In this document: piece by piece, positions 239-64,000 of the stretch
Layout: each line of letters begins with the position of its first letter
Numbering within the stretch: the first letter of the stretch is position 1
Source: Tridacna crocea
Lineage: Eukaryota; Mollusca; Bivalvia; Cardiida; Cardiidae
Length of the DNA: 64,000 nucleotides
Assembly: GCA_943736015.1 (NCBI GenBank)
Contig: OX031063.1
Location: forward strand, 33,944,172 to 34,008,171
Direction: 5' to 3'
The notes under the pieces: model-generated
Database searches by the model: none
The model's input: the letters and a program-made list of their open reading frames with translations, nothing else
What the model was told of the DNA's origin: nothing
Program-made: the position numbers and the translations under genes

Positions 239-3074
239 ATTGAATGATAAGCTGAAGAATGCAGTGTACAGCCAGCTCGGGGATAAGGGGGGAGAGATAG
301 AACAGCCCACAGAACTCATACAGACTGACGAGCAGATGCTACAAAATATGCAGTATCAGATAGACACAGCATTACAGGTAAAGATTTAGTACAGGCCACA
401 GGATATCCTCGTTTATTTGTTACCCATTACCTCACAATTACAAGTTATAATAAGGATAAGCAGGAAGGCCCTTGAAAACAACGTGAGAAATAGAGAAAAT
501 GCTGGTAATCAATATTTTCTCCAATTCTCACAATGTTTTCTATCCTATTCGAGACAAAAATCATTCATTGAGCTACATTTAATTTGTCATGTGCAGATGC
601 TTTCAGTTCAGTCTAGCACAAAATTTTATAGTACATGTATTGTAAAGAGTTAATCCATCGGTGAACATACTTCATTTGAATGTATTAACTCTTTACCAAA
701 CAATCCAGACTTTTAACACCCCTGCAAAAGAATCCTTTTGAAAACATTGTGGTAATCAGCATTTTCTCCATTTCCAGCAATGTTTCCTACTTTTTCCAAA
801 ACAAATTTCATTTTTTGAGCAATGTTTATTTTGTCATTGAATTTGGACCAGTCCAAAAATTTGTTGTTTGGTAAAGAATTAAAGTTTTTGCAATTGGTAA
901 AGGGTTAGCAAAATAACATAAATAACAAACGCTGTTGATGTTATTTGTATTTGTCATCAAAATAGAAACTACAATTACAAAATGGAACATTGATTTTGTT
1001 TCTAATGAGTAATTTTTCTCTTTTTACTCATACAAACTTTAAAAAAGCTATGATTTGCATTTAGATTTTTATTTTCAATTTTTCTATATGAACATTACAT
1101 CTAGGAAAAAGATGCTGCCATAGAGAAATGGCATGAGGCAGATGCCGAGATAGACAGACTTCAAGGACAACTGCAGGTAAAGTCATAATCGCCTTATCTT
1201 GCTTGAGATCAAGTAAATCTAATTATAGTGTTCCAGGCTTGTTTTAAGAGAAACCAAATTGGAAGTAAGTCATTGCTATAATCATTTCTGAGGCCTGATG
1301 AAGATCATTGCATCAAGAAGGACTTGTCTCTTCCTGCTGTCATTTACAAGTGGACTTTATGTTAATTAATTTTGACGGAAGGCACTTTCACCTTATTTTG
1401 TTCTTACATTACAAAACCAATTGAGTATTTAACCTTTTTAAAAAGGATTTGGAAAATATTATGAGAAAATTAACAAAATGCTGGTAACTAGCATTTTGCC
1501 GTTAACTGCAATGTTTTCTACCCCAACAAAAGAAAACTCAAAAAAGGTAGAAAAATAAAATAAAGAAGAAAAAGATTTTTTTTTTTTTTTCAGTAATATT
1601 TATTTTGTTGCCTGCAAATGCTTTGAATTTAGTTAAGTCTGAAATTTCACCTTTGGTAAGGAGTTAAATGTATTTTTGTGGATGGATGTGTGTACTCACT
1701 TTCTGCCACAACAACAAACTTTCAGACTTCCCCAAATTGATAGTACATGTATCTGCTGATTATAGATATAACCTAAAAGCCTTTTATCAATGAGAGGCTA
1801 GAAAATACTGTGCAAAAAGAAGAAAACATACTGTATCCAATATTTTCTCCTTTTCCACAGTGTTTTCAAAGAACTTCTTCCACAGGATAATTAATACAGG
1901 GAATTAATTGGCATTGCCTGTCATGGGTACACAAATATTTGCAGTAAAGTTTGGATTAGGGTATGACATACAAATTATTTGAAGCAAGAAAATTGTACTG
2001 CACTTATAACTGTTTTCCTCTGAGGAAGTTATATCGGTTGCAAGTTGACCTCATATTTGCACAAAATGACCATGTAATAAACCAATATTATGCCTGGTTT
2101 ACGCTAGCTGATTGTGCTTTTTGCCTTTAATATTGGTTGTTTGTAGACCAACTGGATGGTTGTGTCATATCTTTTGTTTAGTTAGCTAAAAATAAGTTTC
2201 TTTTAAACTCGCACCTGCCGAAAATACTGCATACGAAAATTTATGCTTCAGTTATGAATATACATGCGTGTGGATTACCTATAAAAAACAAAAGAAACAA
2301 TGCTGAATGATTTATTGAATTATTAATCACTGTATTAGATAACTACAGAAGTACTTGTAGGTGTATGTTGGACCATCTCTTCCTGCATGTACATATATCA
2401 GTCTAAGAGTCAGAAAATATAGCGAAGTTTGCACTATCAATATAGTGAATTATGCTTAGAGCGAACTAAATCTAGCTGTCCCCTGAAATTCACACGATCA
2501 TAGTTTTACTGTAGATCATTTAAAGGTATCACTGAGCTTTCCATCTGCTTTTTTAACCTATTAGCCTCATCTTCAGGTGCTCAAACAGATAGCTTTCAAC
2601 AAGATAAGAATGCTTAGAACATGCACAAACACTACTTGTTCAATTTGCTGCTTCTCTGCAATCTTGAGAAGTGCCCATCCCTAATAATTTTGTGAATTTA
2701 CACATATTTGTATTACAGTTTCATATTTGAATAATCCTATTTCATTATTTATAATCATAGGAAGAGAAGAGTAGCCATCAATGGGGAGTTATTGAACAAC
2801 AGGCTCATCAAGTAAGCATCTATGAGAATGTTTCATATATACTTTATTTATCAGAGCTCAAATGTCCCCTTGAGTCCAAAAGGGTTGTCTACCTCCTCCA
2901 AAATCATCTGTTCTTCCATGCTATGGCAAAAGGGAATATAATGCATCTCTGTGATTCATGGTACAGAGCAAGCTATCATATGATTATAGAGCCTTATAAT
3001 TTGATTAGTTGAACAATCAACTAAATCATTAGGTAAAATGATCCTTAGACATGCATTACAACCCCCCCCCCCCC

Positions 3075-3106
<32 letters not shown>

Positions 3107-6100
3107 TGATCTGTGTCAGCCTGTGGGGACCTTGGAGACTGACATGGGTCAGTTCTTTTTGCAGGAGCATTACTGCATTCAGCTTTCCTAACATAGAGCA
3201 TGGCTGAGAAAGAGAAGAGTTACCATCAAACGGGTGATTTAACAACAGGCTCATCAAGTAACTAGCAATGAATATTTCATACCTGATGTATCAGAGGTCC
3301 AAAAGGGGTTTCTATGTGCTCTAAAATCTCAGTTCTTCAATAACAATATGGATATGAATAAATATGATAGCTTCTCAATACTGATATAGATGTAGGTGCT
3401 CTCTGACATTGCTATGCTCTGATATATGGTGAAAAACATTTTGGCTCTAGCTTTAGTAGTTTTGATATTTGAGATTATGATTAACCCTTTACCAAACAAT
3501 CCCTGGTTTTCACGACCTTGACAAGAGGCCTTTTGAAAACATTGTGGGAAAAGGAAAAAATACTGATAACCAGCATTTTCTCCTTTTCCCACAATGTTTT
3601 CCACCCTATCCAAAACAAACTTTAATTTTTGAGCCACATTAATTTTGTTGCCTGCAAATGCATCCAAATTTGAAGAGTCAAAAATTTTGTCATTTGGTAA
3701 AGAGTTAAAGTCAAACTCTTCTTCTTTATCAAAAAAAAAAAGTTTGACTCTTTGTACTTAAACATTTATATGCGAAAATTCAGCTACCAGCATTTTTTTT
3801 TTTAACAATGTTTTAAGAAACATTTTTGTCATGGTCATTAAAACACAGAATTGTTTGGTGAAGGGTTAAATGAAATCTTGAGTTTACTTTAATGTTAGAA
3901 CTTGTTTTAGTATGACAACTCTTTTTGTATTTTAGATGCAGTCTGAGTACTTTGAAACTGTCAATCTTTTAAATAGAGAGCTTGAGCAAGTACAGCAGGA
4001 ATTAAGGTTTGTTCTTTTTTACAGTATTGGCCCCTATCAGATAACAAAATGGAAGGCACTTGCTGAGAAGAAAGTTAATGTGCTGCAAATGATGGGACCT
4101 GTCTTTTGAAGAACAGAAAACATCTTGGGAAATGGAGAAAGTGCTGGAAATCAGCAGTTTCTGTATTCCACAATATTTTCAAGTCTTCTTTTTCCTCTGG
4201 GTGATTTCACCCTGTACCACAATCTTGAGTTTTAACAACCCAACAAAGAAAGCTATTGAAAACATTGTGGGCAATAGAGAAAACTTAGTATTTCCTCCTT
4301 TTCCAATGACTTCTACCCTATGAAAGACAAATTTTATGTCTCAAGTTTGTTTAACTTGTTGTTTTCAAATGTTTTCATTCTGGACAATGCTAAAATAATT
4401 TTGCCTTATAAGAAGTAAGAAGTAAAACATAGAGTTGCTTTGTGGAGGGGATAGCCCATTGATGTGCAAGTATAAATTTATATGCCCCTGCGTGTTACAG
4501 CTCTAAAGAATATTGTAGAAGAAAGAGCAGTTACTTGTTGTTGGGTATCATTCTTTGAACCTCAATGTTTTTAAGTCTGTTGAAATACAAATGTATGTGT
4601 TTGTTTTATTAATTAATTTTGACAGATCTGCAAAAAGTCTTAAACCTACTTTTGTTACCTGATGCAAAAAATTTAAATGCTGATTATATTTGGTAGCTGA
4701 TATTAAATGTCAGTCATATTTTGCAATATGATAAATATTTTGTAAAGATGCCACTCCTGTACCTGAGATATATCTATTTCTTAAGATAATCTTTTTGTAG
4801 GCAAGCAAGGCATGAACTAATATTTTATAAAGATGCCACTCCTGTACCTGAGATATATCTATTCTTAAGATAATCTTTTTGTAGGCAAGCAAGGCATGAA
4901 CTGGAAACTACAACTTTACAAGTAAAAGACCTGAGAAGAACAAACAAAGAACTTGAACAGCAGCTAAACTGGAAGGTAGTTTTCTTCTTTCTTTTTTCAT
5001 ATGCCATCCTCTTTCAATGCTAGCTCAGCCCACTTGCTGCTGTTGGTAGGACTTAGTTCATGTAATATAAGGATTTGAACTGCTAATCTTACAATGAGTT
5101 GAAATTTCTATTAAAGGTGGGTATTTAGAATTTTCAAATCACACCAAATTAAAAAAGTATATATGTCACTGAAATTTTTATGAAAAAACAATACAAATCA
5201 TCAGTAATGAGAGTCATAAAATTACGAAAAAAAATTTTTTTGGCGGTGGTATTCCCTTAAAAGGCTATGTAGCCTCTTAAGCTATTTTTAGATTTCCCGC
5301 CAAAATAAAAAAAAATATTGTGGGAATGTTAAGTGACTTGCACGTGACTAATGACTCTGAAATTCTATAACATAACAAATGTGTAATTATTTTCTATACT
5401 GTCTAGAACTTTGTATGCTATGTTTGAAGCTTCGTCTGTATATTTCCGGTATGTAAATGAGCGAGTTGCTCTTGTAAAAATAGACCATGTTTCCCTTCAG
5501 TGTCGACCTAGGCTTTAGTAAAACTCTAATTTATCTAGTTGTCAGATGGTTTTTGACTACTGGGTTTTAATGAATGAAAATTATAAGGCTTTGGGAGTAT
5601 AAAGATGATTTTTTTGTATTGTTGTAAAATTTTCGTCCCAAAATCTGAAATGCCACCTGTAAGGGTGTAATTAAAAGTAATAAAAGTAAAGACTGGTTCT
5701 GCTCCCATGGCTGAATATATTTTCTCTATAAGAATTTTAGACTGTTGCATAGAAACCTTGTGCTTTATAATACTGATGTGCATTGGTTGATAGATGTGAT
5801 CTGATAACGTATAAATCCTGCTAGAAATTAATTCAAATATCAAGCAAACAAGTGCAATCCATAATATGCTACTCAAGAAAGTTATATACACATAATACAA
5901 TTTTTTTACTGCCTGTCATTTAACCCATTATCAAACAATCCCTACTTTTGACTACCCTGAGAAAGAAGCCTTTAGAAAACATTGTGTTAAAAGGAGAAAA
6001 TGCTGGTAACCAGCATTTTCATCTTTTCCCACAATATTTTCTACTCTTCACAAAACAAATTTCAAATTTTCAGTCGTTTTTATTTTGTCGTCTGCAAATG

Positions 6101-9100
6101 CTTTCGATTAGGACAAGCCTAAAATAGTGTCGTTTGGTAATGAGTTAAATTTCAGGAAATTCTTTAAACCACTGCTCCACAGTGGCAATTTTCAGGCCTC
6201 TGCATTTGGCACCATTGAAGCATTGTAATACATGTACATGTACTCTACCACACAATCCTTTGTTCAAATAACATTTAGAACCAGCATTTCGTTCTTTTCC
6301 CACAATGTTTTCTACCTGTTCCGGGACAAATATTGGAATATGAAAAAAAAGAAAAGAAGAAAAAAAGAAAAAAAAATTAGATTGTCATCTAAGAATACTT
6401 TAGGTCTGGTCTAATCCAAATTTTTGCCATATTCTAAAGGGTTATCAGATAAGCTCATTACATGGGCAGAAATCTAGGGTGACTTCACAAAGGTTTGGAA
6501 AGTTATTTATTTACTGTGTCATCTTAGGATCAAGAGGTTGCAGAGGTGATATTTAAGGAAGGGATCACAGATAGTAAAGTTGGTGAGCTGAAGAGAATCA
6601 TGGATGATCTTAGACGAAAGTAAGATGATATTATGATGCAGATTTATGTGTCTCCTTCACTGTTATCGTCTTGTGTATTTTTCAGTATTTACACCTTTCC
6701 TTACTTTTTATACATTTGGTCATCAATTTTTTGAAATAGGGTTATTATGTTTTCCAGATGTGTTTGTATTCATTTGAATCCCACCGTGGCGTTATTGCTA
6801 TAAATGTCATTTGCAGGTCATAATTCGATAAGAGAAAAATATTCCATATCAAATCGTATGATCCTGAGGAGGGCTATATATTTATTGTCATATTGTTTTA
6901 GACTGTCTGGTCAAGAGAATGAGACAGAGGAACTCAGGAGAGAAAAAACAGCATTAGAAGTGAGGATCAGTGAGATGCAGAAAAGAAAGTAAGTGACATT
7001 CAGTAACAGTTACCTAAAACAGACACTGAATTTTTATGGGGTAGACATCAATCATTAAAGAGCTTTTCTTACCCAGAGATAGTTTACAGTTTGACTCTTT
7101 CAGTGCCAAAAGTGAAAATGTTGTGTTTTTTTTTTAGTAGCATAGATCAAGATCAGCCTGAAAGGAATGTACAGTCTGATCTTGAGTTCATATCATCAAA
7201 TAGTTCAGTCCAACTTTTAAGCTAAAAGTCTTTTGGAGTTTTAATAGAATGTAATCCTCAGTCTCAGAAATGTTTTAAATCGTATACTTTAGGCTGAAAT
7301 CAGCATTTTGACTTGTACCTGTAACCCTTGGTCAGGTGTTTGCTGTGTAGGCTAATTGAGTTTAACACAGCCTTTCAAGATAGGATAGTTTTGGTAGCTC
7401 TAAAATTTGTTTTGTTATGTGTTACAGTACTGATGTGGGTAATAGAGAAATGGAGGCAGTCACCCAAATGAGAGAAGCAGTTCAGATGGTAGAAACAGCA
7501 TCACTGGAGAAGGAACAAGTAACTGATAGATAGACTTTGTTGCTTCAATTATTTTAGAGCTGACTATAAAAATATGTGAACACATTACTGTGTTCATTTG
7601 TCCTACAGTATACATGGATATGCATGTGTGTCGAAAAAATTTGCAAATTAAGGATTACAAACATTTTGCGTATAGACTTTTGTTATTTTGTTGGTATACT
7701 TGTGGTAAAATATGCACAGAGGAATTTTTACAACTTCTGAAATTTGCGAAATTACAAAAATTTCCACATCACAAAAATCTCCATTTGTACAGTATTTTAT
7801 CATACAGCTGACGCCTGTGGATAAACGTAAACCAAAGAAGAAATTATTCACAATAAGTAATTTCTATATTACTACAACACTCATTTGTATTTATGTAATG
7901 CAAATTAAGTTAGTACTGGTTTTCCATATTCAAAAGATCTGATTTTAAGCTGTCTACCTCAAATTTGCTTGGAGAATTGTTAAGTCTATGAAAGGGAGCT
8001 CTGCAAACATCCGTGTAGAATTGTGTGGTCTATAAGAATCAGAAAAAAGAAAAAAAAAAACTATTAATGAGGCAAGGCAATTCAAGGCATTGTGTTTTGT
8101 TCATATTCTGAAGCTTCAGCAGAAAAATAAGCTTTGGTATCAGCTAAATGAAAAGACAAAAATGAAATTCAGCCTTTTATTAATTTTCATACTGTTCTTT
8201 CTGTCAGACTTAAAAAAAGACTAGACTGGGTTTTTTGTTTGTTTGTTCGTTTTTTCGTTACAATGAGCATCTATGAATCTTATCTCCCAATGTACATTTA
8301 ATATTACCCTATTTTAGGTTCATTTTGGTTGTATTTTATTTGTATTTCATTATATGATCAATCATTTTAATGTGGATGGAATATTTTTCATGAATCCGAC
8401 AGGGATTATGGACATTGGGTTTAGGGAAATGAGCTTTTCTTCCATAATGGACCAACAAACTTTATACTGTATATAGATTACACATGTTTTATGATAGACA
8501 TGTTTTTGCTTGACTGATCAGAGCACTTTTAACCCTTTCCTACTTAATCACAAGTTTGAAAGACTTTCAAGAAGATATTTGTAAACATTATGGTAAAATG
8601 AGAAAATCTTGGTAACCAGTATTCCATCCTTTTGCCACAATGTTTTCTATCCTATCATAGACAATTGTCACCATATGAGCAATATTTGATTTGCTGTCTT
8701 GAAATTCCTCTAATTTTGACCAGTCTAGATTTCATTTGTTTTGTAAAGAGTTTAAAAACATGATTGTAAACTGGGAAAAAAAATCTTATTAATTTCATTT
8801 TTTCTTTCTGATTCTTATAGTGCTATTAACTCAGGTTGACCATACAATTCCACAAGGATGTTTACAAGGATAACATTTCTTTTTGGAGTAAAGTATATAA
8901 ATCTAAAATTTCTGTCACCTTTTAGGCAGAGATTGCTGTACAACAGAAGGAAGAAGAGTTAGATCAGTTAAGAGAAGTTATAAACAAGCTGATCAATGAG
9001 GCAGGGGCAAGAACAAGGCAAGAGGTGAGTGGTCCTGAAGTTTTAGATTGAATTTCACTGGTTATGAAACACAGATATGAAGATTGATTTGAAAGTTGAT

Positions 9101-17329: not shown

Positions 17330-17415
17330 CCTGTATCTGAATCCAACCCACTAACACTCAAGTTTTTTTGTCGTCTGACTTGTGGAAAGGAAAGCAAGAA
17401 ACCAATAAGCTGTCT
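17330..17415 (+). other. Probable start of SCLT1 3' UTR
   Basis: Follows the TGA at 17327-17329. No convincing AATAAA occurs within the first 100 bp and MITE sequence begins at about 17416, so the polyadenylation site is not placed. Confidence 0.4.
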
Positions 17416-17870
17416 TAAGTCTTTAACAAACAACAATTTTTTTGATTTGTCTCAATTCAAAACATTTGTAGATGACAGGTCAGTTGGGGCTAAATTTGTG
17501 GATTTTGTCTTTGGAAGATTAGAAAACATTGTGGAGAAAAGAGATTGGTTAACCCATTAACATTCAATCCCTACTTTTGACACCCCTGAGAAAGAGGCCT
17601 TTTGAAAACACTGTAGGAAAAGGAGAAAATGCTGGTAACCAGCATTTTCTCCTTTTCCAACAATGTTTTCTACCCTTCCCAGAACAAATTTCAATTTTTC
17701 AGTCAGCTTCATTTTGTCATCTGCAAATGCTTTAAATTTGAACCAGTCTAAAATTTTGTCATGTGGTAAAGAGTTAAAAGCGTTTTCTCTTTTACCAATA
17801 CAATAATGTTTTGAAACGAATTATTTGTCAGGGTCATTGAAACTTGAAATTCTGTGTTAACTCAGTATTT
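17416..17870 (-). mobile_element. TTAA MITE split by a nested copy
   Basis: The first half ends GAAAACATTGTGGAGAAAAG ... GATTGG at 17548. The second half resumes AAGCGTTTTCTCTTTTACC at 17778 and ends TCTGTGTTAA. The break is at the centre of the host palindrome. Confidence 0.7.
17549..17777 (+). mobile_element. TTAA palindromic MITE nested in another copy
   Basis: Complete copy TTAACCCATTAACATTCAAT to CATGTGGTAAAGAGTTAA, flanked by TTAA on both sides and inserted in the copy spanning 17416-17870. Confidence 0.85.
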
Positions 17871-17939
17871 CCATGAACAATATACCAGCAGGCGACCTAG
17901 AAAAGACCTTTATTAAATTTCTATAATCAGTATGAATTA

Positions 17940-21772: not shown

Positions 21773-21869
21773 CTGAAAAAAAATTCACAAAACTGAATCT
21801 GTTTTTACTTCTACATAAATGTATATTGTCATTTTAGGAATCTGATGACATATTTTGCCCAGTGACAAC

Positions 21870-22115: not shown

Positions 22116-22226
22116 AGATGGAATTGAAGACCAAACAATCAATCATTTGTAAAATTATTTACCAAGTGACGAAAGTTTGGATTTGCCTGAATTGAAAACC
22201 TTTACAGACTATATTGTAAGAATTGC

Positions 22227-22455
22227 TTAACTCTTTACCACATCAGAACATTTTAGACTGGTCTGAATTGGAAGCATTTGCAGACGACAAAATAAAGGTG
22301 ACTGAAAAATTGAAATTTGCTCTGGAAAGGATAGAAAACACTGTGGGAAAAGGAGAAAATGCTGGTTACCAGTATTTTCTCCTTTTCCCACAGTGTTTTC
22401 AAAAGGCTTCTTTCTCAGGGTCATCAAAAGTAGGGATTGTGTGGTAATTGGTTAA
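22227..22455 (-). mobile_element. TTAA palindromic MITE, stem variant CACTG/CAGTG
   Basis: TTAACTCTTTACCACATCAG to GTGTGGTAATTGGTTAA. Both arms carry the variant (AACACTGTGGG and CCCACAGTGTT). A half-copy relic abuts at 22150-22226. Confidence 0.85.
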
Positions 22456-22644: not shown

Positions 22645-22813
22645 TTAACCCCTTACTACACAATGACGATTTATAAGGCCCCTGGGAAAGAAGCCTTTTG
22701 AAAACATAGTGGGAAACACAATGAAAGCCACATTTGAGCCACATTGAAATTGTCATCTGCAGATACTTTCAATTTGGTCAAGCCTTAATTGTTTTTGTCT
22801 GGCAAAGGGTTAA
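22645..22813 (+). mobile_element. TTAA MITE lacking its hairpin
   Basis: Both ends are present (TTAACCCCTTACTACACAAT, TCTGGCAAAGGGTTAA). The palindrome is deleted after GAAAACATAGTGGGAAA. Confidence 0.8.
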
Positions 22814-58000: not shown

Positions 58001-61000
58001 CTTAAACCTTTACCACACACTCCTATGAACTACATTGAATGAACTTGATATAGATGGCAAATTAAAAACATTGTAGGAAAAAAGGCAAATTACTCTCCTC
58101 CCATTAAAAGACATATTCCATTGTTTCAGAAAAGCTTGATAAAGTGTCTGCATTATTTAGCTCACCTGATAACAAAGTGCTAAACATGAGCTTTTGCTGT
58201 CATGCTTTGTCTGGCCTTCATCATGCGTTGTGCATCATCTGGTGTCAACTTTTACCTTGTGTACATTCTAGAGGCCCTATTTTCAGTCCGATAATCATGG
58301 AATTTGGTCAGAATGTTTGTCTTGGTGATACTTCAGACAATTTTGATAATGGGTCATGTCAGGTCAAAATCTTAGAAAAACCTTGGTACACTCTAAAGGC
58401 CACATTTTGAGTCCAATACTTGGTCAGCCTGTTTGTCTTGATATTACCTGGAATGAGGTTGAAAATGGGTCATGTTGAGTAAAAAAAAAAACCAAACTAG
58501 GTTCATAGGTCAAATCTTGGAAAAATGTGTAATTTCTTTAGAGGCCAAATTTTTAGTCCAATACTCTTGAAATTTGGTCAGAATGGTTGTCTTGATGATA
58601 TCTTATAATAATGTGTTTGAATATAGGTCATGGTAGATTAAAAACTAGGTCAAATCTCAGAAAAGTCTTGTATATACTTTAAGCCCCTGTCACACCAAAC
58701 TAGATCTAAGAACGTCTTTCCCTGTCCTGACATGATTGGAAAACGGGTTCCAGTCATGTTATTTTGGCCAGAAAATGCCTGAATCCCCCGTCTCACCAAA
58801 CCTGTTTATAGAGTGTCTTATCCCGTTCAAAAAAATTGAACAACAGGCTGTGATCAGGATAGGACGTGTAATTTCTGTTCGCAAAATACAAACACACTGC
58901 CAATTGATGACCGACTGTGCTGTGTCTCTAATAAGATCGTAGGCAGTTCTGTTGGTAGTACTGTACATCCATCTCATTTTGAGTTTGTTGTCATTCCATC
59001 TGATTTATTACAGGATGGGATGGATGGCAAAAAATGTTGAGCAGGCTCAAAGTTCTGGAGGACCCTTCCCATCCTAGACCGTCCATTAAGTTTGTAAACT
59101 TCTGTTTGGCAAAAATTTTTGGTACAAGTTTGGTATGAAGGGGATATTAGAGGCCACATGTTTTGTTTCAGTACTCTTGAAACTGGGTCAGAATGTTTGT
59201 CCTGATGATTTCGTAGACTAGATTGAAATTGCTTATATTAGATTAAAAACTTGGTCTTGAGGTCATTCCTCGGTAAAACCTTCTGTATTCCCACGCCGGC
59301 ACATTTTCTCAAATACTCGCAAAAAGGGGTCAGAATGTTTTTCTGGATAATTTCTACATGTTTGAAAATAGGCAATATTAAGGTAAAAAGTGGGTCATTA
59401 AGACATATTCAAGTCAAAGCTGGTGTTGTATACTATAAAGGCCTTATATGAAAGTGCAATACTGGGGTTCTGTGTGACCTAGTAGTACAGTGTAGGACTC
59501 GTGACTTGGAGGCCCCTGGTTTGAGTGTCACTGGCTCCATAGGGTTTTTTCACAGAAGTGTCCATTGGCAAGACACTTCACAGCCTAGCCTAGTTCTGGT
59601 GAAACTTAGGAAGACATGAATATGAGCTATTGTCGTGATATGACTGAAATAATGTTGAAAGCAGTGTAAAATACCATTCAGAGGAAATAAGGGTCCAATA
59701 ATAATGAGCATTTTTAGAATGTTTGTCTTGAGAAATTGGAAATGGGTCATATTTAATCAAAAGGCCGAGCTGAGAGAATTCAGGGCTATAATGGCCCTCT
59801 TGTCTCATTTTCCTACAATGTTTGCAAAAGCCTTCTCTGTCAGGGTTTTAAAACTCAGGATTGTGCAGTAAAGGGGTGAGTTAACTCTTTACCAAACAAC
59901 AAAATTTTAGACAGGTCCAAATTGAAAACACTTGCAGGTAACAAAATCAGCAGAAGTCAAATATTAAAAATTGTTTCCAGCAGGGTAGAAAACATGGTGG
60001 AAAAAGGAGAAAATGCTGGTTACCAGCATTTTCTCCTTTTCCCACAATGTTTCCAAAAGGCTTCTATCTCAGGGTCGTAAAAAGCAGGGACCGTATGGTA
60101 AAGGGTTAAGTTGGACTGTATTTGTATGCTATCTAGAACTTGTAGACAGTCTGCACATGGTGTTGTGAAGTGGTTTTGGTGTATTGTAGTCTTGGTGATT
60201 TGCCTGGCCTTCCCCACATTAGTGAAAATACTAACCAATCTAACAGTCGCAGCCCTGTTAAAAAGTTCTTTCGCAGAGATAAACAGCGAAATAAGATGCC
60301 AGAAGTTATCAGGTAAAGTAGACTCCTTACCAGACAAGGAAACTTTAGACTTTTTCAAGTTGAAAGTACATGTATTTGGTGAAATGTCACTCAACTGATT
60401 TAAATTGCATTTCAAAGGGTAGAGTTGAGCCCAGCAGCAGTCAGTATTGCACAGACCAGGGGGGTGCTGGTTTGAATCGCCAGCATAGTGCAGCTAATTT
60501 CTTTCATAGGGTTCGCTCATTACCAAACAAAAATAATTTAGGCTTGTCCAAATTGAAAGCATTTGCAGATGACAAATTTAACATGACTCAAAAAATAAAA
60601 TTTGTTTTGGGAAGGGTAGAAAACATTGTAGGAAAAGGAGAAAATGCTGGTTACCAGCATTTTCTCCTTTTAATACAATATTTTCAAAAGGCTTCCTTCT
60701 TATAGTCGTCAAAAGTAGGGATTGTGTGGTAATGGGCTATTGATAACCATTGTGACAGAATTCATTCCTTTATCACTGTTGATCATTGTCTTGATGATGG
60801 TAATATGGGTAAGCAGCCAGTAGCTTAGGAAGAATATTGTTTGAAGTATTTCAATCACTTTAGCCTTATTTGATACATTGTCTGCAAATGCTCTCAATTT
60901 GGATAAGTCTGAAATAGTTTTCTCTGATTTTGGATTAAGGAAAATTGGAGGATGGTAATTTGTGTTTTCCTTGTTGATACTGTACTGTATTGCAATAGGA

Positions 61001-64000
61001 CCATTAAATCTGTACAAAAAGATATATTTAGACCTGTCCAAATCCAAAGAATGCAGCCAACAAAGTTACATGGTTCTTAAGATGGGATTAACTTTGATAG
61101 GATTGAAAATATTGTAGGAAAACAGGAATTTGCTGGTAGCCACCATATACATGTACATGTACTCATTTTTCCATGATGATGTCAAAAACTTCCCTGGAGG
61201 TTCTTGAATTAACCCTTTACCAAACAATTCCAAGTTTTTACATCCCTGAGATAGAATCCTTTTTCCTGCAGGAAACAAATCTCAATTTTTGAGGTGCATT
61301 TGATTTGTCGTATTCAAGTGCTTTCAATTCGGACCCGTCTAAAATTTTGTTGTTTGGTAAAGAGTTAAGATTCAGGATAGTGTAGTGAAGGGCTGAGGTG
61401 TGTAGAAAAAGTAATAGATCTTTCTTGTACCACTTACATAGATCTGTGGTACTACTCCATGTATCTCTTTCTTTCATGAAACTTCATGAAACTCTGATTT
61501 TCTAAAAGTTCTAGGACTGGCCAAAAGTGAAGTTTGTGGGTGTTTAAATGAATTTAAATTCAAATTACGACTTTTGAATGCATGGATAATGTTGTGAAGA
61601 TGAATATCTGTTATTTAACTGTTGATCCAAGTGTTCATGGCTGAGAGGAAAATGAATTTTATGACTAGGTGAAAAGTTGCAAGGTTGCTTTATCTATTGT
61701 GTACTTTTTGCTTCATTATACAATTTATTCTTTTGCCAGTAAGTAACACTTTCACTAACCATACACTGACAGATAGTCACCTTCACATTAGATTCTGTAC
61801 TTTTAACTGGTGTGATTTAACCCTTTCCCAAACGACAAACTTTTGGACTAGACCAAATTGAAAGCATTTGCGGACGACAATTCAACTCTTGCTGAAAAGA
61901 TGATTTCTGTCTATGATAGGGTAGAAAACATTGTGGAAAAATGAGAAAATGCTTGTTACCAGCATTTTCTCCTTTTCTCACAATGTTTTCAAAAGGCTAC
62001 TATTCCAGACCCATAAAAACCAGGGATTGTTTGGGAAAGGGTTAAGTGTCTTTTAACAATCACATTGTTTACTTTTGGCTGTCACTGCACCTTTAATAAA
62101 CTTTTTCCATGGTTTCTTGCACATTTAGAAAATATTGTGGAAAACATAATGTGCATCTGTCTTTATGTCTAACTTTTAGCATTTTTTATGTTATTACGTT
62201 CTGTACCATTTTTTTTTTTCACACGTTTCCTTTGCTTAATTTAGACATTAGTTTTGAAAAGTTTTCATTTTAGTAATTCCCAGTAGTGTTCAGTGATTTC
62301 AAGATAATCCTGTTTATGCTGTTTAACTTGATCTCACAATATGAAGACAAATTTTGAGCTTGAAAAAGAAAATGATATTGTAAAGGTATGCAGGATGTGG
62401 TGTGCTGAACTTCACCAGCATCAAACTTTCATCAGACTATGTGCAAATATATTCATTCAGGGTGATTGGTTTTAGTAGTGGTAGTCTCTGCAGGCCAGAC
62501 TATTTCCCAAATGACATTATTCATACCCCAGCAAAACGAATGTTTTCTGGGGTATACTGGGATCAGCCCGTCTGTGTGTCCATCTGTGTACAAAATAGTA
62601 GTAATTGCCTGTTTCTGTCAAAGCGCTGGCAGGGGTATTAAGTCACATTCAGTGACAGCTCTGGTTTAAAGAGGTCCAAGTTGGTAACATTTAAGTGATG
62701 TTGATAACTGTTGTTTTATTAAACAAGGACATACAAATAATAATGTACTAAGTCCAAAATTTGTAAGGCAAACAAATGCCATTTTTTACCTACTTAACAA
62801 TACATGTACATGTATTACTTACCGATATTCCAGAAGCCTTTGGACAGCCCACACCCACACCGACCTAACCTGAATATCGACCACTTGAGTGACAAACTTC
62901 CAGAAGCAAGATACTTCACCAAAACTTTCAAACACAAACTGACAATAGTTATTGATTACCAGTATTTCATAAATGAACTAACCAGTGCAACATCATAATC
63001 CTTATGAGTAGTTACTACAGAAACTTGACTGATGTCATTTACACCTTACTATCTGAGTATACATGCACTTCCTATAATAGTTAAACCTGTTTATGACACA
63101 AAATATGTCAAACAACCTAAAAAAAGTTCAAGATAGTTGGAAAGTGAAGTATCAAATACAAGTCTCCCATATTAATCATGAACGCCTTTGCATTTCCAAA
63201 TGAATCATCATTGGCTGTAAACTTGATATGCTGCATTAATACAGCAAGTCATTTGAGTGGCGATTACTTTGCACATAGCTCTTATTAGAACCGGGATCAA
63301 AGCACCATACTTTGAGGTGAAGGAACTTAAATATCAAAGAAATTGGCCAGGAAACAGGAGGGTCCTGTTGGTGTTTTACATTGTGTGCTGGTGCATTAAT
63401 TAGGTGATGTCTTCCAACATCACCTCACAAAATATTTTTATATTGTTTTTTCTGTCTTTCTTTCTTTGGGTAATGAAGCAAGCAATTTCAGATACTTTTT
63501 ATCAAATTACCATTCTATATTCTTATACTTGTCTTATTATATCTATGATTATGATAATTTATGATTGTAAGTTGTGACCTATGTTGTATTTTGCAGTGAT
63601 CACAAAGAAGAAGAGGTGAAGACAGCTTTTCCAGCAGGAACATTTGGCAGTAAACTAGAACATTTTGAAACCAGCTACCTAGAGTACTTACATGATGCTC
63701 ATGTAATGTTACAGAAATGTGCAGCTGCTTGTAGAGTTTGGTTGTACCCATATGATGGTGAAAAGCCTCCAATTAACATGCTAGACAGCCTTTCTGTTAT
63801 TCTACAAAACGCAAGTGATGTATCAGAGGATGCAGAAAGTGCAAAAGATGTGACAAATACACCAAGTGTAGTTGAAACTTCAAACTCTGCTAAATCTATA
63901 GAGCAAGGAAAAACTTCCTGTGATATTTCTGTTGAAATGGATGTTGAAGCAAGGGATAGTGCAATAGATGGTAATGATGATGATATTAAAGAATTGGGAA
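30988..64000 (+). CDS. FHIP1: FHIP1 (FTS and Hook-interacting protein, FAM160A family), 5' seven coding exons, 3'-partial
   Basis: FHIP proteins join FTS and Hook to form the dynein adaptor complex that links early endosomes to dynein. Exons: 30988-31874 (5' UTR, then ATG 31098), 34341-34499, 38313-38399, 54068-54235, 54619-54698, 55594-55734, 63597 to the window end. Phases agree throughout, giving about 543 codons so far. The protein opens MSWFKRR, as human FHIP1 opens MSWL. Family blocks recalled and seen in order: PGPILHYLLEHEILEKF, YSDLPRKIEIPSEDW, SLEFCNAVAQ then IAHPLV, NGFLVPVLGPALHQ, TATAYLDLFLRKITEPAL, CEDVMFDLVFK, HLIPCTHVMVSQ, and YLEYLHDAH followed by CRVWLYPYDGEKP. The last exon is still open at 64000 in an acidic, Ser/Asp-rich stretch, which matches the variable linker before the C-terminal domain. 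The start was chosen because the exon begins at a CAG acceptor and 31098 is the first ATG in the conserved frame. Paralogue assignment (A or B) is not meaningful here. Introns are long and filled with repeats. Confidence 0.93.
32170..32343 (-). mobile_element. TTAA MITE, truncated
   Basis: ATTTGCAGACAACAAATATG through GGAAATGCTGGTTGCAGACA to CTTCCTTAGGGTTGCTTAA; lacks its first about 50 bp. Confidence 0.55.
32365..32584. repeat. 110-bp tandem duplication
   Basis: TGGACTACTCCAAACTGAAA at 32365 recurs at 32475 with two or three differences. Each unit ends AAACCCTTTTTTCAG. It begins inside a TTAA MITE start. Confidence 0.9.
32516..32860 (+). repeat. Segmental duplicate, copy 1 (partner at 40480-40850)
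   Basis: Shares ATGTTGAGCA, GTCTAGAATGTCTCAGCCAA, GTAGACTTGAGGTCAGACTG and GCTGCAGCTCTACTTGTGAA with the partner 8 kb downstream, in the same orientation and order. Confidence 0.85.
32748..32979 (-). mobile_element. TTAA palindromic MITE
   Basis: TCTGTACCAAACAACAAAAA to TTGTGGTAAGGAATTAA; good hairpin around GGTTACC. Confidence 0.75.
33199..33426 (+). mobile_element. TTAA palindromic MITE
   Basis: TTAACCCTTTACCAAACAAT to TTGGTAAAGGGTTAA; the hairpin has several mismatches. Confidence 0.8.
33712..33929 (+). mobile_element. TTAA palindromic MITE
   Basis: TTAACCCATTACCAGGCAAT to GTTTGGTAATGAGCTAA. The right flank is shared with the next copy. Confidence 0.8.
33926..34114 (+). mobile_element. 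TTAA MITE with hairpin centre deleted
   Basis: CTAACCCTTTCCCAAATAAT to TTTGGTTATGAGTTAA. After GAAAACATCGTGG it jumps straight to TTTTCCCATAATGTTTTC. Confidence 0.8.
34513..34741 (-). mobile_element. TTAA palindromic MITE, 13 bp after FHIP1 exon 2
   Basis: TTAACTCTTTACCACAGGAC to GTGTGGTAATGGGTTAA. The GTATGC donor of exon 34341-34499 lies just upstream. The right TTAA is shared with the next copy. Confidence 0.85.
34738..34963 (+). mobile_element. TTAA palindromic MITE, abutting the previous copy
   Basis: TTAACCCATTAACACACAAT to CATTTGGTAAAGGGTTAA, in opposite orientation to its neighbour, one TTAA between them. Confidence 0.85.
34986..35075 (+). mobile_element. TTAA MITE fragment
   Basis: TTAACCTTTGAGAGAAAATG then ACCAGCATTTTCTCCTTTTC and CACAATGTTTTC, truncated before the SINE copy. 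Confidence 0.6.
35101..35305 (-). repeat. tRNA-derived SINE, copy 1
   Basis: On the minus strand, TGACTCAGTGGTTAGG (A-box-like) is followed at tRNA spacing by GGAGTTCGAATCCCGCTCC (B box). The body ends in GTTACGGACTTCGTTCGTAA. A 205-bp unit repeated almost unchanged 322 bp downstream. It is not a functional tRNA, as the acceptor stem is missing. Confidence 0.8.
35423..35627 (-). repeat. tRNA-derived SINE, copy 2
   Basis: Same 205-bp length as copy 1 and nearly identical; this copy has GGCTCAGTGGTTAGG, closer to the A-box consensus. The near identity suggests recent duplication. Confidence 0.8.
35678..35904 (+). mobile_element. TTAA palindromic MITE, diverged
   Basis: TTAACTCTGAACCACACTAT to GTTAGGAAAGAGTTAA; the stem is imperfect. 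Confidence 0.7.
36111..36337. mobile_element. TTAA palindromic MITE, subfamily B (GCTCGT core)
   Basis: TTAACCCTTTACCTCATATG to TCTATGGAGTAAAGGGTTAA. The hairpin is GGAGAAATTGCTCGT, T, ACGAGCAATTCTCC: the same outer stem as the main family but different inner stem and flanks. Confidence 0.85.
36485..36868 (+). mobile_element. Two decayed TTAA MITE copies in tandem
   Basis: The first runs from GCCTTTACTACTTAATCC to GCATTTGGTAAATAGT (about 36708). The second keeps only TTTCCCACAATGTTTTCTAC to TTTTGGAAAGGGTTAA. Confidence 0.6.
36865..37067 (-). mobile_element. TTAA palindromic MITE, diverged
   Basis: TTAACTGTTTAAAATGCAGA to GTGTGGTAAAAGGTTAA; core TTGTTAATTGCATTTTCTCC. Confidence 0.65.
37589..37819 (+). 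mobile_element. TTAA palindromic MITE
   Basis: CTTTTACCATTTATCCCACT to CATGTGGTAGAGGGCTCA; intact inner hairpin; short direct repeat CACTGTTTTC. Confidence 0.7.
37817..38055 (-). mobile_element. TTAA MITE, decayed, abutting the previous copy
   Basis: TCACTCTTTACCAAAGGCCA start; GCCAGTAGCCAGCATTTCTC core; ends eroded. Confidence 0.55.
38518..38747. mobile_element. TTAA MITE, subfamily B
   Basis: ATAACCCTTTACTCCATAGA to ATATCAGATAAAGGGTTAA; core GGAGAAATTGCTCGTAACAA. Lies 118 bp after FHIP1 exon 3. Confidence 0.8.
38810..39026 (+). mobile_element. TTAA palindromic MITE, TTAA at dyad centre
   Basis: Core AAAATGCTGTTAAGCAGCAT; ends eroded (GATAAAGACTGAAG). Confidence 0.65.
39150..39390. mobile_element. 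Decayed TTAA MITE relic
   Basis: TTTGCAGATGACCATAAAAT, GGGAAAAATGGAGAAAAGCG and TTGGTTAAAGTGTATTAAA only. Confidence 0.4.
39436..39835. mobile_element. Second-family palindromic MITE interrupted by a TTAA MITE
   Basis: AAGTAACACAATTTCTGAC and GTGTGTAATAAATGTTGGAG before 39583 and GAATGGTTGATGAATGCGGA after 39812 match the order of the 20769-20966 element. Confidence 0.65.
39584..39812 (-). mobile_element. TTAA palindromic MITE nested in the second palindromic family
   Basis: TTAACTCATTACCAAACAAC to GTGTGGTAGTGGGTTAA, with TTAA on each side inside the host element. Confidence 0.85.
40258..40463 (-). mobile_element. TTAA palindromic MITE, shortened stem
   Basis: TTAACCCTTTACCAAATGAC to TTTGGTATAGGGCTAA; part of the outer stem is lost. 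Confidence 0.75.
40480..40850 (+). repeat. Segmental duplicate, copy 2 (partner at 32516-32860)
   Basis: Same order of blocks as copy 1 with scattered substitutions and small indels. Both copies end in the same TTAA MITE sequence. Confidence 0.85.
40722..40933 (-). mobile_element. TTAA MITE within segmental duplicate, 3' stem arm lost
   Basis: TCTGTACCAAACAACAAAAA start. After AAAATGCTGGTTAATG the right arm is missing. Ends near GGTGAAGGGTTA. Confidence 0.6.
41241..41345 (+). CDS. Possible cassette exon in FHIP1 intron (35 codons)
   Basis: A pyrimidine-rich tract ending CTTTAG precedes 41241 and AAG|GTAATT follows 41345. The 105 bp are open in phase 0 on both sides, matching the phase-0 FHIP1 exons at 38399 and 54068. 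The encoded stretch is Lys-rich (MDKKKVPKSKKGQKP). Vertebrate FHIP1 as I recall it has no insert at this point (after GPALH), so this would be a lineage-specific or alternative exon. It is not part of the repeat families seen around it. Chance cannot be excluded. Confidence 0.35.
41943..42395 (+). mobile_element. TTAA MITE split by a nested copy
   Basis: The left part runs to TTCCTGCAGTG (42052). The right part resumes ACTTTTCTACC after 42281 and ends TTCTGTAGAGGTTTAA. Confidence 0.7.
42053..42281 (+). mobile_element. TTAA palindromic MITE nested in another copy
   Basis: TTAACCCATAACCACAAAAT to CATTTGTTAATGAGTTAA, TTAA on both sides; hairpin with stem variant AACAGTGTGG. Confidence 0.85.
42440..42675 (+). 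mobile_element. TTAA palindromic MITE
   Basis: TTAACCTTTGCCCAAACACA to CATTTAGTAAAGAGTTTA. Confidence 0.75.
43058..43427. mobile_element. Composite: TTAA MITE with a subfamily B copy at 43184
   Basis: The outer copy runs from GGTACCTTTTACCACATCAT. At 43184 a subfamily B start (TTAACTCTTTACTCCATAGG) and its perfect 67-bp palindrome (43241-43307) are set into it. AATGTTTTCAATTTTGATGA to CATTTGAAAAAAAGTAAAT resembles the outer copy's right end. The right end of the inner copy is not definable. Confidence 0.65.
43590..43815 (-). mobile_element. TTAA MITE, decayed
   Basis: TCACCAGACAACAAAAATTT start and TTTCCCACATTGTTTTCAGA; inner stem GCAGG/CCTGC-like remnant only. Confidence 0.5.
43916..44130 (-). 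mobile_element. TTAA palindromic MITE
   Basis: TTACTCTTTACCAAACAACA to GTGTAGTATTGAGTTAA; core AAAATGCTGGTTGCCAGCAT. Confidence 0.75.
44150..44384 (+). mobile_element. TTAA MITE, rearranged
   Basis: The left part (TTTTAACCACCCTCAAAAAG, GAAAACATTATG) and right part (TTGCAAATGCTTGTGATTTG, TTTGGTAATGAGTTA) are present; the hairpin is replaced by an AGAGAAAATAC direct-repeat-like stretch. Confidence 0.55.
44549..44775 (-). mobile_element. TTAA palindromic MITE, near-consensus
   Basis: CTAAACTCTTTACCACACGA to TTATTTGGTAAAGGGTTAA; only one mismatch in the stem (AACACTG against CAATGTT). Confidence 0.85.
45195..45840. mobile_element. Cluster of decayed TTAA MITE fragments
   Basis: TTGTGGGAAAAGGAGTAAAA, TCGTTTGGTAAAGAGTTTAG (45450-45470), CAACTCTTCCTTTACCTGAA and TACCAGCATTTTCTCCTGTT belong to at least three old copies. 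Confidence 0.5.
45835..45979 (-). mobile_element. TTAA MITE, 5' truncated
   Basis: Starts near the hairpin (TTTTGACTTTGGAAGGGTTA) and ends GTGAGGTAAAGAGTTAA. The right TTAA is shared with the next copy. Confidence 0.65.
45976..46203 (-). mobile_element. TTAA palindromic MITE, near-consensus
   Basis: TTAACCCTTTACCAAGCGTC to TTGTTTGGTAAAGAGTTAA. Confidence 0.85.
46444..46491 (+). CDS. Possible small cassette exon in FHIP1 intron (16 codons)
   Basis: The acceptor GGTGTAG ends at 46443 and a donor GTCAGT starts at 46492. The 48-bp interval is open in phase 0 and reads DVSGLPTPLLDSPMFS, more linker-like in composition than the surrounding AT-rich sequence. It is in frame with FHIP1 exons 3 and 4, like the candidate at 41241. 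Evidence is limited to splice consensus and composition. Confidence 0.3.
46822..47165 (-). mobile_element. Two TTAA MITE copies in tandem, diverged
   Basis: The first has TATGGGAAAAGGAGAAAATG and ends GGAAAGGGTTTAA near 47030. The second keeps GTGGAAAAGAGAAAATACTG and ends TGTTTGGTAAAAAAATG. Confidence 0.6.
47238..47465 (+). mobile_element. TTAA palindromic MITE, stem variant GTTGG/CCAAC
   Basis: ATAACCCTTTCCCAAACAAC to GTTTGGTAAAGAGTTTAA. Both arms carry the variant (ATTGTTGGAAAAGG and CCTTTTCCAACAAT). Confidence 0.85.
47470..48655. other. FHIP1 intron without recognised features
   Basis: AT-rich. A possible worn MITE piece lies near 47990-48040 (TCCTTTTCAAAATGTTTTCT). Nothing else was recognised. 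Confidence 0.35.
48656..48785. mobile_element. Second-family palindromic MITE, half copy
   Basis: AACACAATTTCTGATTGACA and AAGAATAGTTGGTGAATA match the right half of the 20769 element. Confidence 0.55.
48792..49020 (+). mobile_element. TTAA palindromic MITE
   Basis: TTAACTCTTACCAAACAATC to TCATTAGGTAAAGAGTTAA. Confidence 0.85.
49132..49350 (-). mobile_element. TTAA palindromic MITE
   Basis: TTAACTCATTACCAAATGAC to GTGTGGTAATGGGTTGA. Confidence 0.8.
49615..49783 (-). mobile_element. TTAA MITE, internally deleted relic
   Basis: GTAACCCTTTGCCAAATGAT start and GGGTAAAAGGATTTAA end; no hairpin remains. Confidence 0.5.
49918..50068. mobile_element. Second-family palindromic MITE
   Basis: TTATTCACCAACCATTCTCA at the left mirrors AGAATGGTTGGTGAACTTA at the right; shortened centre (AAAATGGTTTAGCCATTCAG). 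Confidence 0.8.
50315..50523 (-). mobile_element. TTAA MITE, diverged
   Basis: TTTTCACCAAATGGCAAAAT to TATGGAATAGTGTTAA; stem weak. Confidence 0.6.
50537..50756 (+). mobile_element. TTAA palindromic MITE
   Basis: TTAACCTATTACCACACAAT to CATGTGGTAATGGGTTAA. Confidence 0.85.
50843..52434 (+). repeat. Long TAGCTCACCTGAGC repeat with a 166-bp tandem array
   Basis: Head TAGCTCACCTGAGCACAACG with GCTCAAGGGGAGCT; tail TCAGGTGAGCGATCCAGGGC with CTTGGCCCTCTTGT. Between 51060 and 52300 are about seven units of 166 bp (TCTGAAAC anchor at 51101, 51267, 51433, 51599, 51762, 51928, 52094). Each unit also contains GTTCCTTGGGTGACCCTTTT and GCTTCTTGCACTATACAGAA. No protein is encoded. Confidence 0.85.
52647..52872 (+). 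mobile_element. TTAA palindromic MITE
   Basis: TTTGTAACCACACAATGCCG to CATATGGTAAAGAGTTAA; strong hairpin. Confidence 0.8.
52869..53060 (+). mobile_element. TTAA MITE, decayed
   Basis: GGAGGCCTTTGGAAACTTTT and GGCATTTTCTCCTTTTTCCA only; shares the TTAA of the previous copy. Confidence 0.5.
53090..53327 (-). mobile_element. TTAA palindromic MITE with short stem duplication
   Basis: TCCAAACGACAGATATTTGG to GTGTGGTAAAGAGTTAA. AAATATTGTTGGA is repeated twice in the left stem. Confidence 0.75.
53324..53553 (+). mobile_element. TTAA palindromic MITE, sharing TTAA with both neighbours
   Basis: TTAACCCAGTACCACACAAT to CGTGTGGTAATGGGTTAA; stem variant CACTG/CAGTG on both arms. Confidence 0.85.
53554..53750 (+). 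mobile_element. TTAA MITE, 5' shortened
   Basis: CTTGAGAAACAGTGCTTTTA through AAAATGCTGGTAACCAGCAT to CGTTTGGTAAAGAAAT. Confidence 0.65.
53768..53967 (-). mobile_element. TTAA palindromic MITE, diverged
   Basis: TTCATCAAACAATAAAATTT to GTTTGGTAAAGAACTAAA; ends about 100 bp before FHIP1 exon 54068. Confidence 0.65.
54395..54605 (+). mobile_element. TTAA MITE, decayed
   Basis: GTTTTTACAAGCCTAAGGAA, GAAAACATGGTAAGAGAAGG and TTTGTAACCAGCAACTTTC; fills the short intron between exons 54068 and 54619. Confidence 0.5.
54920..55112 (+). mobile_element. TTAA MITE, decayed, with 26-bp tandem duplication
   Basis: AATGGTGGTAACCAGCGTTT core; near the right end the segment TCAAGTCTAAAATTAGGTTG is repeated in tandem. 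Confidence 0.55.
55935..56177 (+). mobile_element. TTAA MITE, decayed
   Basis: GCCTTTTGAAAATATTGAGG, AAAATGCTTGTAACTAGCAT and TTATCAGGCAAGTAATTTA. Confidence 0.55.
56268..56496 (+). mobile_element. TTAA palindromic MITE (GCTCAT core subfamily)
   Basis: TTAACTCTTTCCCAAACAAG to CATCTAGGAAAGGATTGAA; core GGAGAAATTGCTCATAACAA. Same subfamily as the copy in the LINE. Confidence 0.8.
57110..57330. repeat. Fold-back repeats (TGGCTGC and GATCAGACTGCA types)
   Basis: TAAGCAGCCAACCAAGG against ACAGTTGGCTGCTCAACA, followed by GATCAAAGATCAGACTGCAT against GCAATCTGATCCTGATCAAT. Both are short inverted repeats of unknown class. Confidence 0.5.
57400..57495 (+). mobile_element. TTAA MITE right-end fragment
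   Basis: ATTTTATTTGTTGTCTGCAA, ATGCTATCAATTTTTACGAG and TAAAATTTTG match the right half of the family. Confidence 0.5.
58005..58140. mobile_element. TTAA MITE relic
   Basis: AACCTTTACCACACACTCCT and AAAACATTGTAGGAAAAAAG only. Confidence 0.4.
58155..59805 (+). repeat. Long TAGCTCACCTGA repeat, third copy, different interior
   Basis: Head TAGCTCACCTGATAACAAAG; tail CAGGGCTATAATGGCCCTCT. The interior carries repeated GGTCAGAATGTTTGTCTTGA modules (58310, 58430, 58575, 59190, 59330), unlike the other two copies. A SINE-like piece with GTGTAGGACTCGTGACTTGG and GATATGACTGAAATAATGTT is inserted at 59461-59665. Confidence 0.7.
59461..59665 (+). repeat. SINE-like insertion with tRNA-like head
   Basis: GTGACCTAGTAGTACAGTGT then CCCCTGGTTTGAGTGTCACT suggest degenerate A and B boxes. 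The tail GTGATATGACTGAAATAATG matches the tail of the repeat at 21870-22115. Confidence 0.5.
59881..60109 (-). mobile_element. TTAA palindromic MITE, near-consensus
   Basis: TTAACTCTTTACCAAACAAC to CGTATGGTAAAGGGTTAA. A fragment of another copy (59805-59884) abuts it on the left. Confidence 0.85.
60510..60737 (-). mobile_element. TTAA palindromic MITE
   Basis: GCTCATTACCAAACAAAAAT to GTGTGGTAATGGGCTA. Confidence 0.75.
60740..60850 (+). repeat. SINE-like fragment related to 21870-22115
   Basis: TATCACTGTTGATCATTGTC and AAGCAGCCAGTAGCTTAGGA repeat the middle of the 21870 element. Confidence 0.5.
61209..61367 (+). mobile_element. TTAA MITE lacking its hairpin
   Basis: TTAACCCTTTACCAAACAAT to GTTTGGTAAAGAGTTAA; the palindrome is replaced by a few bases (TTTTTCCTGCAGGAAACAAA). 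Confidence 0.8.
61817..62045 (-). mobile_element. TTAA palindromic MITE, near-consensus
   Basis: TTAACCCTTTCCCAAACGAC to TTGTTTGGGAAAGGGTTAA. Confidence 0.85.
62520..62700 (+). repeat. CCCCAGCAAA hairpin-headed repeat fragment
   Basis: ACCCCAGCAAAACGAATGTT folds with TCTGGGGTATACTGGG and is followed by CCCGTCTGTGTGTCCATCTG. It resembles another invertebrate interspersed repeat with a hairpin head and GTCCGTC-like body. Confidence 0.45.
62705..63596. other. FHIP1 intron before exon 7, little recognised
   Basis: It contains ACATGTACATGTATTACTTA near 62810 and no repeat family seen elsewhere in the window. It ends with the acceptor TTTTGCAG for the exon at 63597. Confidence 0.4.

Follow-up and report, generated by a model that had tools for sequence, protein, structure and literature searches.

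The 64,000 bp of Tridacna crocea DNA analyzed here (G000:C8:33944172-34008171, hereafter the window, from a genome of 1,048,827,098 bases in 31 contigs) are crowded with copies of one short repeat that has a palindrome at its centre. The locus raises the questions of what this repeat is, how far it extends beyond the window and what moved it. We find that the family is very probably a piggyBac-type non-autonomous element, a miniature inverted-repeat transposable element (MITE). This assignment is based on its TTAA flanks and on two transposase-bearing elements in the same genome, here called EL1 and EL2, whose tips resemble those of the MITE. The family is short, non-coding and present in high copy number, with a model of 225 positions and 183,553 exact copies of its palindrome core genome-wide.

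The extent of the family in the window was examined with an iterated nhmmer profile (E ≤ 1e-3), whose 225 positions correspond to an element of about 229 bp when both TTAAs are counted. The profile gave 116 non-overlapping matches covering 19,092 of the 64,000 bp (29.8%), and 0 matches in the reversed window. Sixty of the matches are on the plus and 56 on the minus strand in a field that spans positions 421 to 62045, in keeping with the two orientations reported in the initial annotation. Its estimate of about a fifth of the window proved too low once relics are counted, and its figure of about 60 copies was slightly high for near-full-length copies, which number 49 among the 116 matches. The terminal 17-mer TTAACCCTTTACCAAAC was matched 80 times in the window with up to three mismatches, compared with 0.5 expected by shuffling. 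The TTAA flanks claimed earlier are common at both ends: of the ends that could be scored, 35 of 58 on the 5′ side and 32 of 56 on the 3′ side have an exact TTAA, 50 and 47 have one with no more than one mismatch, and 18 of 39 copies are exact at both ends. The 51 near-full copies compared with one another differ by 33% for the mean pair and by 10% for the closest. The centre of the consensus is a perfect 67-bp palindrome of 33 + 1 + 33 bases, exactly the structure that had been described, with its 33-bp arms and one unpaired base. The central base had been given as A or T depending on orientation. This is mostly a single base read from two strands, but T, G and C also occur when all copies are read in element orientation (A 125, T 25, G 7 and C 5 in 162 pooled copies).

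The family is not confined to this locus. The exact 31-bp palindrome core occurs 183,553 times in the genome, and the reversed core, used as a control, occurs 0 times. In twenty arbitrary 4-kb stretches (80 kb), we obtained 69 matches, 28 of them near full length, with four of the stretches empty; the element accounted for 13.0% of the bases (bootstrap 8.3–18.3%). The exceptional abundance suggested by the initial annotation thus holds genome-wide, and neither of the observations it had named as counting against it, a low genome-wide copy number or an absence of TTAA flanks, was made. The coverage of the window is higher than that of the arbitrary sample (29.8% versus 13.0%), as would be expected if the window were a locus-specific cluster of repeats rather than part of a genome-wide family. 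Such a cluster is nevertheless extremely improbable, as the density of exact cores is alike in the window (11 in 64 kb) and the genome (one per 5.7 kb), and the 40 copies scored in the search with the copy at 3481–3708 are spread over 18 contigs. The 80-kb sample is itself poorer than the genome average, since it holds 6 cores when 14 are expected. Extrapolation gives about 0.37 million near-full copies genome-wide from the density in the sample, or about 0.83 million when calibrated by the core, and the family probably comprises hundreds of thousands of copies. The copy at 3481–3708 was 85–87% identical to 39 other genome copies (40 of 6,296 candidates scored) and the copy at 34513–34741 was 95–97% identical to 39 others (40 of 4,712 candidates scored). 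The family has both young and old subfamilies, and its source copies kept changing.

To identify a source of transposase, we examined matches to PF13843, the piggyBac transposase domain. Scoring 116 of 196 first-look candidates gave at least 118 matches genome-wide; none of those listed is in the window, in agreement with the earlier statement that the window has no transposase gene. Thirty of the 118 were taken as loci for comparison, and a piggyBac element with closer ends may exist among the matches outside these 30. Six of the loci (L025–L029 and L034) are near-identical units that represent EL1, with 97.8–99.98% identity across 4.1 kb. EL1 is about 7.2 kb long; its copy on C10 has 7,194 bases (G000:C10:12635477-12642670) and is 99.94% identical to that on C9. 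It starts with CTCATTACCAC and finishes with GGTAATGG(G). TTAA flanks both sides of the copies on C15, C3, C5 and C18 and one side of those on C10 and C9; a seventh copy, on C17, was read only at its right end, which has TTAA. The long exon of EL1 has an open frame of 492 residues that scores 297 bits against PF13843, and among solved structures its product is closest to piggyBat (9c0f, E 5.7e-40) and piggyBac (6x67, E 4.3e-36). With splice sites placed by eye, an acidic first exon beginning MSDSDSD is found upstream, and the C-terminus, also read by eye, is cysteine-rich. Since the copies are 97.8–99.98% identical and their transposase domain has no stops, the sequences suggest that EL1 is an autonomous piggyBac element with recent or current activity. 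EL2 (C7:18507265-18513640, 6.4 kb) has a transposase domain 84% identical to that of EL1 and carries TTAACTCTTTCCCACAC at both ends. The right ends of EL1 and EL2 each have four tandem 35-bp units, and these subterminal units are candidate transposase binding sites. Both elements also contain the MITE as a passenger, with at least three copies each about 400–1,090 bp from the left end. Four or more further piggyBac families are present in the genome, with the ends TTAACCCTTTATATAC, TTAACCCTTTCAGCGC, TTAACCCTTGTCATGC and TTAACCCATTTATGCC, some with identical transposase domains; their loci are L014–L019 together with L023 (about 2,765 bp), L020/L035, L021/L022/L032 and L011.

The ends of the MITE were compared with those of EL1 and EL2. 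The 5′ end of the MITE consensus resembles the terminal 35-bp unit of the EL right ends. The EL2 right end agrees with it at 30 of 40 positions, including 22 of 30 at positions 11–40, a value reached by 0 of 5000 shuffles, and the EL1 right end at 25 of 40, including 17 of 30 at positions 11–40 (P 0.0012). For comparison, seven other piggyBac elements, which fall into four families by their ends, score 11–18 of 40 at the 14 ends compared. The similarity is closer for an individual copy, that at 39584–39812: its 3′ end is identical to the EL1 left end TTAACTCATTACCA (14 of 14), and its 5′ end agrees with the EL1 right end at 31 of 39 positions, with a local score of 38 compared with a maximum of 22 in 200 shuffles. 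Among 149 MITE 5′ tips, CTTTACC was found in 41, CATTACC, the variant of EL1, in 27, CTTTCCC, the variant of EL2, in 16 and other tips in 65. Having one whole end and one tip in common with them, the MITE belongs to the EL piggyBac lineage. The initial annotation had proposed that a transposase between matching ends would assign the family, and EL1 and EL2 are such elements, each with a PF13843 transposase between TTAAs and MITE-like ends.

Several observations weigh against this placement. At the other end, similarity to the MITE is confined to the tip: the EL1 and EL2 left ends agree with its 3′ end over about 13 bp, with only 6 of 30 and 8 of 30 positions alike at 11–40. The L011 end, which is from another piggyBac family, reaches 18 of 40, and its 13 of 30 at positions 11–40 (P 0.016) is the highest value there among those 14 ends. 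The outer 400 bp at either end of EL1 and EL2 yielded no long palindrome, but only short ones whose arms measure 8–10. CC[CT]T is given as the terminal motif of piggyBac elements (PMC2872659); it fits the CCCTTT of the consensus 5′ end but neither the CTCTTT 3′ end nor CATTACC, and the termini of EL1 and EL2 depart from it in the same way as those of the MITE. Mobilisation of the MITE by the EL transposase is what we infer. Finally, near-full window pairs are at least 10% apart and the EL1 copies are nearly identical, so present-day EL1 need not have moved most of the copies in the window; this difference in age is partly bridged by the younger MITE copies that are 95–97% alike. We rejected an origin of the MITE from either element by simple internal deletion, since homology extends beyond the tip at one end only and the EL left ends share just the tip with the MITE.

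The initial annotation had named piggyBac-type and Kolobok-type transposases as alternatives. The first is supported by the transposase and ends of EL1 and EL2 and the second is contradicted by the termini. Sola3 also targets TTAA, and a MITE of either the Kolobok or the Sola3 type would therefore use the same target as the element described here. TTAA is common to the Kolobok superfamily, but Kolobok termini follow 5′-RR..YY-3′ (PMC9587614) and those of our element are 5′-CC..GG-3′ or begin with CT. The Xenopus T2-MITE, also a TTAA-targeting animal MITE, has the termini AGGRR and is assigned to Kolobok (PMC6004289). With piggyBac transposases between matching ends present in the same genome, a Kolobok or Sola3 origin is very improbable; Kolobok was ruled out on its termini, without a search of the genome for Kolobok or Sola3 profiles.

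The arrangement of the copies is accounted for by the choice of TTAA sites. The window has 23 abutting pairs, compared with 2.2 expected under uniform placement, and these include at least two single copies read as two pieces owing to internal deletion. A simulation with 95 insertions into 440 TTAA sites, both numbers being our choice, produced 16.8 abutting pairs (10–25). Since the choice of TTAA sites alone suffices to explain abutting and nested copies, a preference for insertion into older copies was dropped as an explanation.

The palindrome is the best conserved part of the element together with its outermost tips. Columns vary least in the palindrome (0.07–0.11 in ten-column bins) and at the tips (0.12 and 0.08), and the variation rises to 0.28 in the flanks; across nine bins of flank divergence, the palindrome diverged at 0.40–0.63 of the flank rate. 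The matching of its arms was examined in the window and in a pooled set of 162 of 290 distinct copies, for which a minimum of 30 scorable arm pairs was required and from which L001, L025–L029, L034, L040, L052 and L063–L072 were omitted as duplicates or short pieces. Double changes that restore pairing numbered 43 in 68 window copies, compared with a shuffle mean of 18.3 and maximum of 33, and 103 in the pooled copies, compared with a mean of 37.1 and maximum of 58; sliding the partners by 1–7 columns (ten pairings) gave 18–33. Genome-wide co-variation was counted for one pair, 75/99, and one control. Against 183,553 wild-type cores, the pair has 4,914 single G>A changes (2,457 per arm) and 186 compensated doubles, where 32.9 are expected for independent arms (5.65-fold). 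The non-partner control has 13,642 single changes (6,821 per arm) and 264 doubles (132 per orientation) versus 91.3 expected (1.45-fold). The arms at pair 75/99 thus co-vary beyond what differences in copy age produce, about 3.9-fold over the control. For a second core pair, the single-arm variant 77 A>C was counted 929 times genome-wide, unevenly between the strands (589 forward and 340 reverse), and at least seven plus-strand copies of it are found within 1 Mb (G000:C2:23332673-24248229); local duplication has perhaps amplified one copy.

Two explanations for the matched arms were weighed. In one, individual copies correct one arm from the other by template switching or recombination, with no selection on source copies. 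The excess of compensated doubles in the pooled set and at pair 75/99 is what such correction would leave behind, and recombination between the arms, which amounts to an inversion, would also flip the central base. A>T makes up 25 of 37 changes at the centre compared with 102 of 260 at A sites in the arms (Fisher p 0.0013), and the 13 copies with a central T among 115 full copies have mostly A in their three nearest relatives. A generally fast-evolving central base was rejected as an explanation, as A>G/C is not significantly more frequent there than at A sites in the arms (p 0.07). Other results argue against correction within copies. The 103 compensated changes include shared marks of subfamilies (T61C 16 times, A79T 12 times). 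Rare types of double taken alone show a smaller excess over slid pairings (41 versus 13–29), and singletons show none (10 versus 9–22). Private complementary doubles are few, nine in 66 copies compared with 0–3 in eight slid controls, and site 61, a subfamily site, accounts for four of the nine. In the arms, private changes occur at 0.55 of the flank rate, but at 0.80 (95% range 0.62–1.05, not significant) in columns where the seven nearest copies agree, which leaves protection at the level of the copy unsupported. We had considered a palindrome that corrects itself in dead copies as the explanation; given this shrinking deficit, it was demoted to an alternative, and correction within copies now seems rather unlikely to be what keeps the arms matched.

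As a tentative reading, short of an even chance in our estimation, we propose that the palindrome is a functional cis element that came from outside the piggyBac lineage and made the MITE much more effective as a substrate than the autonomous elements related to it. It would thereby have driven the spread to several hundred thousand copies, with its arms held in step by selection on source copies, by arm recombination or by both. Deletions of at least 20 palindrome columns are present in 10 of 143 copies compared with 2 of 143 for a control stretch, a count that omits four copies split into two matches; an unstable inverted repeat would be expected to show such losses. The copy at 39584–39812 gave z = -10.0 when folded whole as single-stranded DNA.

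By analogy with the established piggyBac mechanism, a transposase of the EL lineage would bind the MITE ends, excise the MITE and reinsert it at TTAA. Insertion would also occur at the TTAAs that border older copies, producing abutting and nested copies, and repeated bursts of slightly different source copies may have raised the copy number. The least certain step, which we offer as conjecture, is that the central palindrome aids mobility as a binding site for a transposase dimer or as a hairpin; it is suggested by the fact that source copies kept the arms matched as the rest drifted. A binding site is plausible because repeats near the ends, palindromic or imperfectly so, are bound by a dimer of the cysteine-rich domain in both piggyBac and piggyBat (PMC7351741, PMC11707139).

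The closest precedent is provided by the CMITE families of Acropora corals and their piggyBac partner AmiPB1 (PMC2872659). As in the CMITEs, the target is TTAA, the ends are of the CCCTTT type in several variants, and copies abut. An internal region, 75 bp long in the CMITEs, is more conserved between families than the ends, and the piggyBac partner has matching ends with little internal similarity. The CMITEs are about 100 bp long with about 1,600 copies per genome, whereas the element here has 229 bp and, by extrapolation, 0.4–0.8 million near-full copies. The word "palindrome" is absent from the main text of the CMITE paper, and the internal regions are likened here by description rather than by sequence. 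The T. crocea family is of the same kind as the CMITEs and is set apart by its far larger scale and by the demonstrated 67-bp palindromic conserved centre. With piggyBac and piggyBat it has in common the TTAA target, the transposase family and the cysteine-rich C-terminal domain; the piggyBac repeat is 19 bp long and near the tips, whereas the repeats here are 67 bp at the MITE centre and four 35-bp units at the EL right ends (PMC7351741, PMC11707139). No description of the MITE family was found among the literature titles and abstract beginnings listed, which is weak evidence of absence, with Repbase and Dfam outside this comparison.

The individual copies discussed here are collected in the table. 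Two of them, 61209–61368 and 22645–22813, have wholly or mostly lost the palindrome and kept both ends.

Table. Selected copies of the MITE in the window; positions are those of the window and model positions those of the 225-position profile
Positions	Strand	Feature	Model positions
3481..3708	+	near-full copy of the CCCTTTACC type, TTAA at both ends	
5920..6148	+	near-full copy, ends CCCATTATC and CTCATTACC, TTAA at both ends	
13021..13246	-	near-full copy	
17549..17777	+	near-full copy, TTAA at both ends, adjoins two other copies	
20980..21207	+	near-full copy in the RWD-domain gene, flanked by two of its exons (the second, at 21506-21754, recognized by eye only)	
22227..22455	-	near-full copy, TTAA at both ends	
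22645..22813	+	copy in which an internal deletion took most of the palindrome	1-70 and 138-225 side by side
24557..24789	-	divergent subfamily, CCCTTTCCC end, palindrome differing by four compensated pairs	
33199..33426	+	near-full copy, TTAA at both ends	
33702..34114	+	two abutting copies with one common target tetramer (now CTAA)	
34513..34741	-	near-full copy, among the younger ones	
34738..34963	+	near-full copy, TTAA in common with the copy at 34513..34741	
36111..36337	-	divergent subfamily, flanks differing from the consensus by 47%, two compensated pairs and one arm mismatch in the palindrome	
39584..39812	-	near-full copy, EL1-like CTCATTACC 3′ end, perfect palindrome	
39692..39758	-	67-bp palindrome of the copy at 39584..39812, 33+1+33, 0 arm mismatches	
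41943..42394	+	older copy, interrupted by another that inserted into it	1-118 before and 116-222 after the inner copy
42053..42281	+	full copy nested in the copy at 41943..42394, TTAA on both sides	
43187..43425	+	divergent subfamily, flanks 43% off consensus, arms perfectly matched, four compensated pairs	
44550..44775	-	near-full copy	
45976..46203	-	near-full copy, TTAA in common with its neighbour	
47238..47465	+	near-full copy, central base flipped (T)	
49122..49350	-	near-full copy	
50537..50756	+	near-full copy, TTAA at both ends	
53325..53553	+	best-scoring near-full copy, TTAA at both ends	
59881..60109	-	near-full copy, TTAA at both ends	
61209..61368	+	copy without the palindrome, TTAA at both ends	54-122 gone
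61817..62045	-	near-full copy, CCCTTTCCC ends, TTAA at both ends	

Copies of the element sit between the exons of a RAI16-like gene, for which three exons have Pfam matches with their limits not delimited, and between two exons of an RWD-domain gene, one with a Pfam match and the other recognized by eye. On the antisense strand of many copies a frame is open through most of the element, with peptides like NSLPNDKILDW..ENIVGKGENAGYQHFLLFPQCFQ. These frames are likely accidental and a possible source of spurious predicted proteins; similar peptides may occur among the proteins predicted for other animals. No peptide phrase from the open frames of the window was matched in the literature text searched. 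Scans of the window with Rfam (gathering threshold) and for tRNAs were empty. The palindrome core had no match in viral and prokaryotic contig collections, nor one full copy in phages and plasmids, as expected there.

Other repeats are also found in the window. Two neighbouring open frames on the minus strand (34982–35326 and 35349–35693) encode nearly identical long peptides and are a second, locally duplicated repeat. Three further minus-strand frames (15549–15821, 51395–51688 and 52079–52324) have similar peptide phrases by eye and probably represent another repeat family; the one of the three checked against Pfam had no match. Plus-strand open frames at 24779–25392 resemble by eye a relic of a non-LTR reverse transcriptase, and Pfam found nothing in the first part of this stretch.

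The findings mean that a single family without genes occupies a share of the order of one tenth in a gigabase-sized animal genome. For scale, all MITEs combined amount to about 6.4% of the genome of Aedes aegypti, and Thalos, the most numerous family of wheat, has 42,321 insertions (PMC5199201, PMC6200218); the comparison is given for scale, and no record is claimed. The role of the conserved internal region, which was left open for the coral CMITEs, becomes testable in T. crocea, given that the genome contains nearly identical relatives with a transposase. The 183,553 core copies, in turn, constitute a natural record of mutation in an inverted repeat with a one-base spacer.

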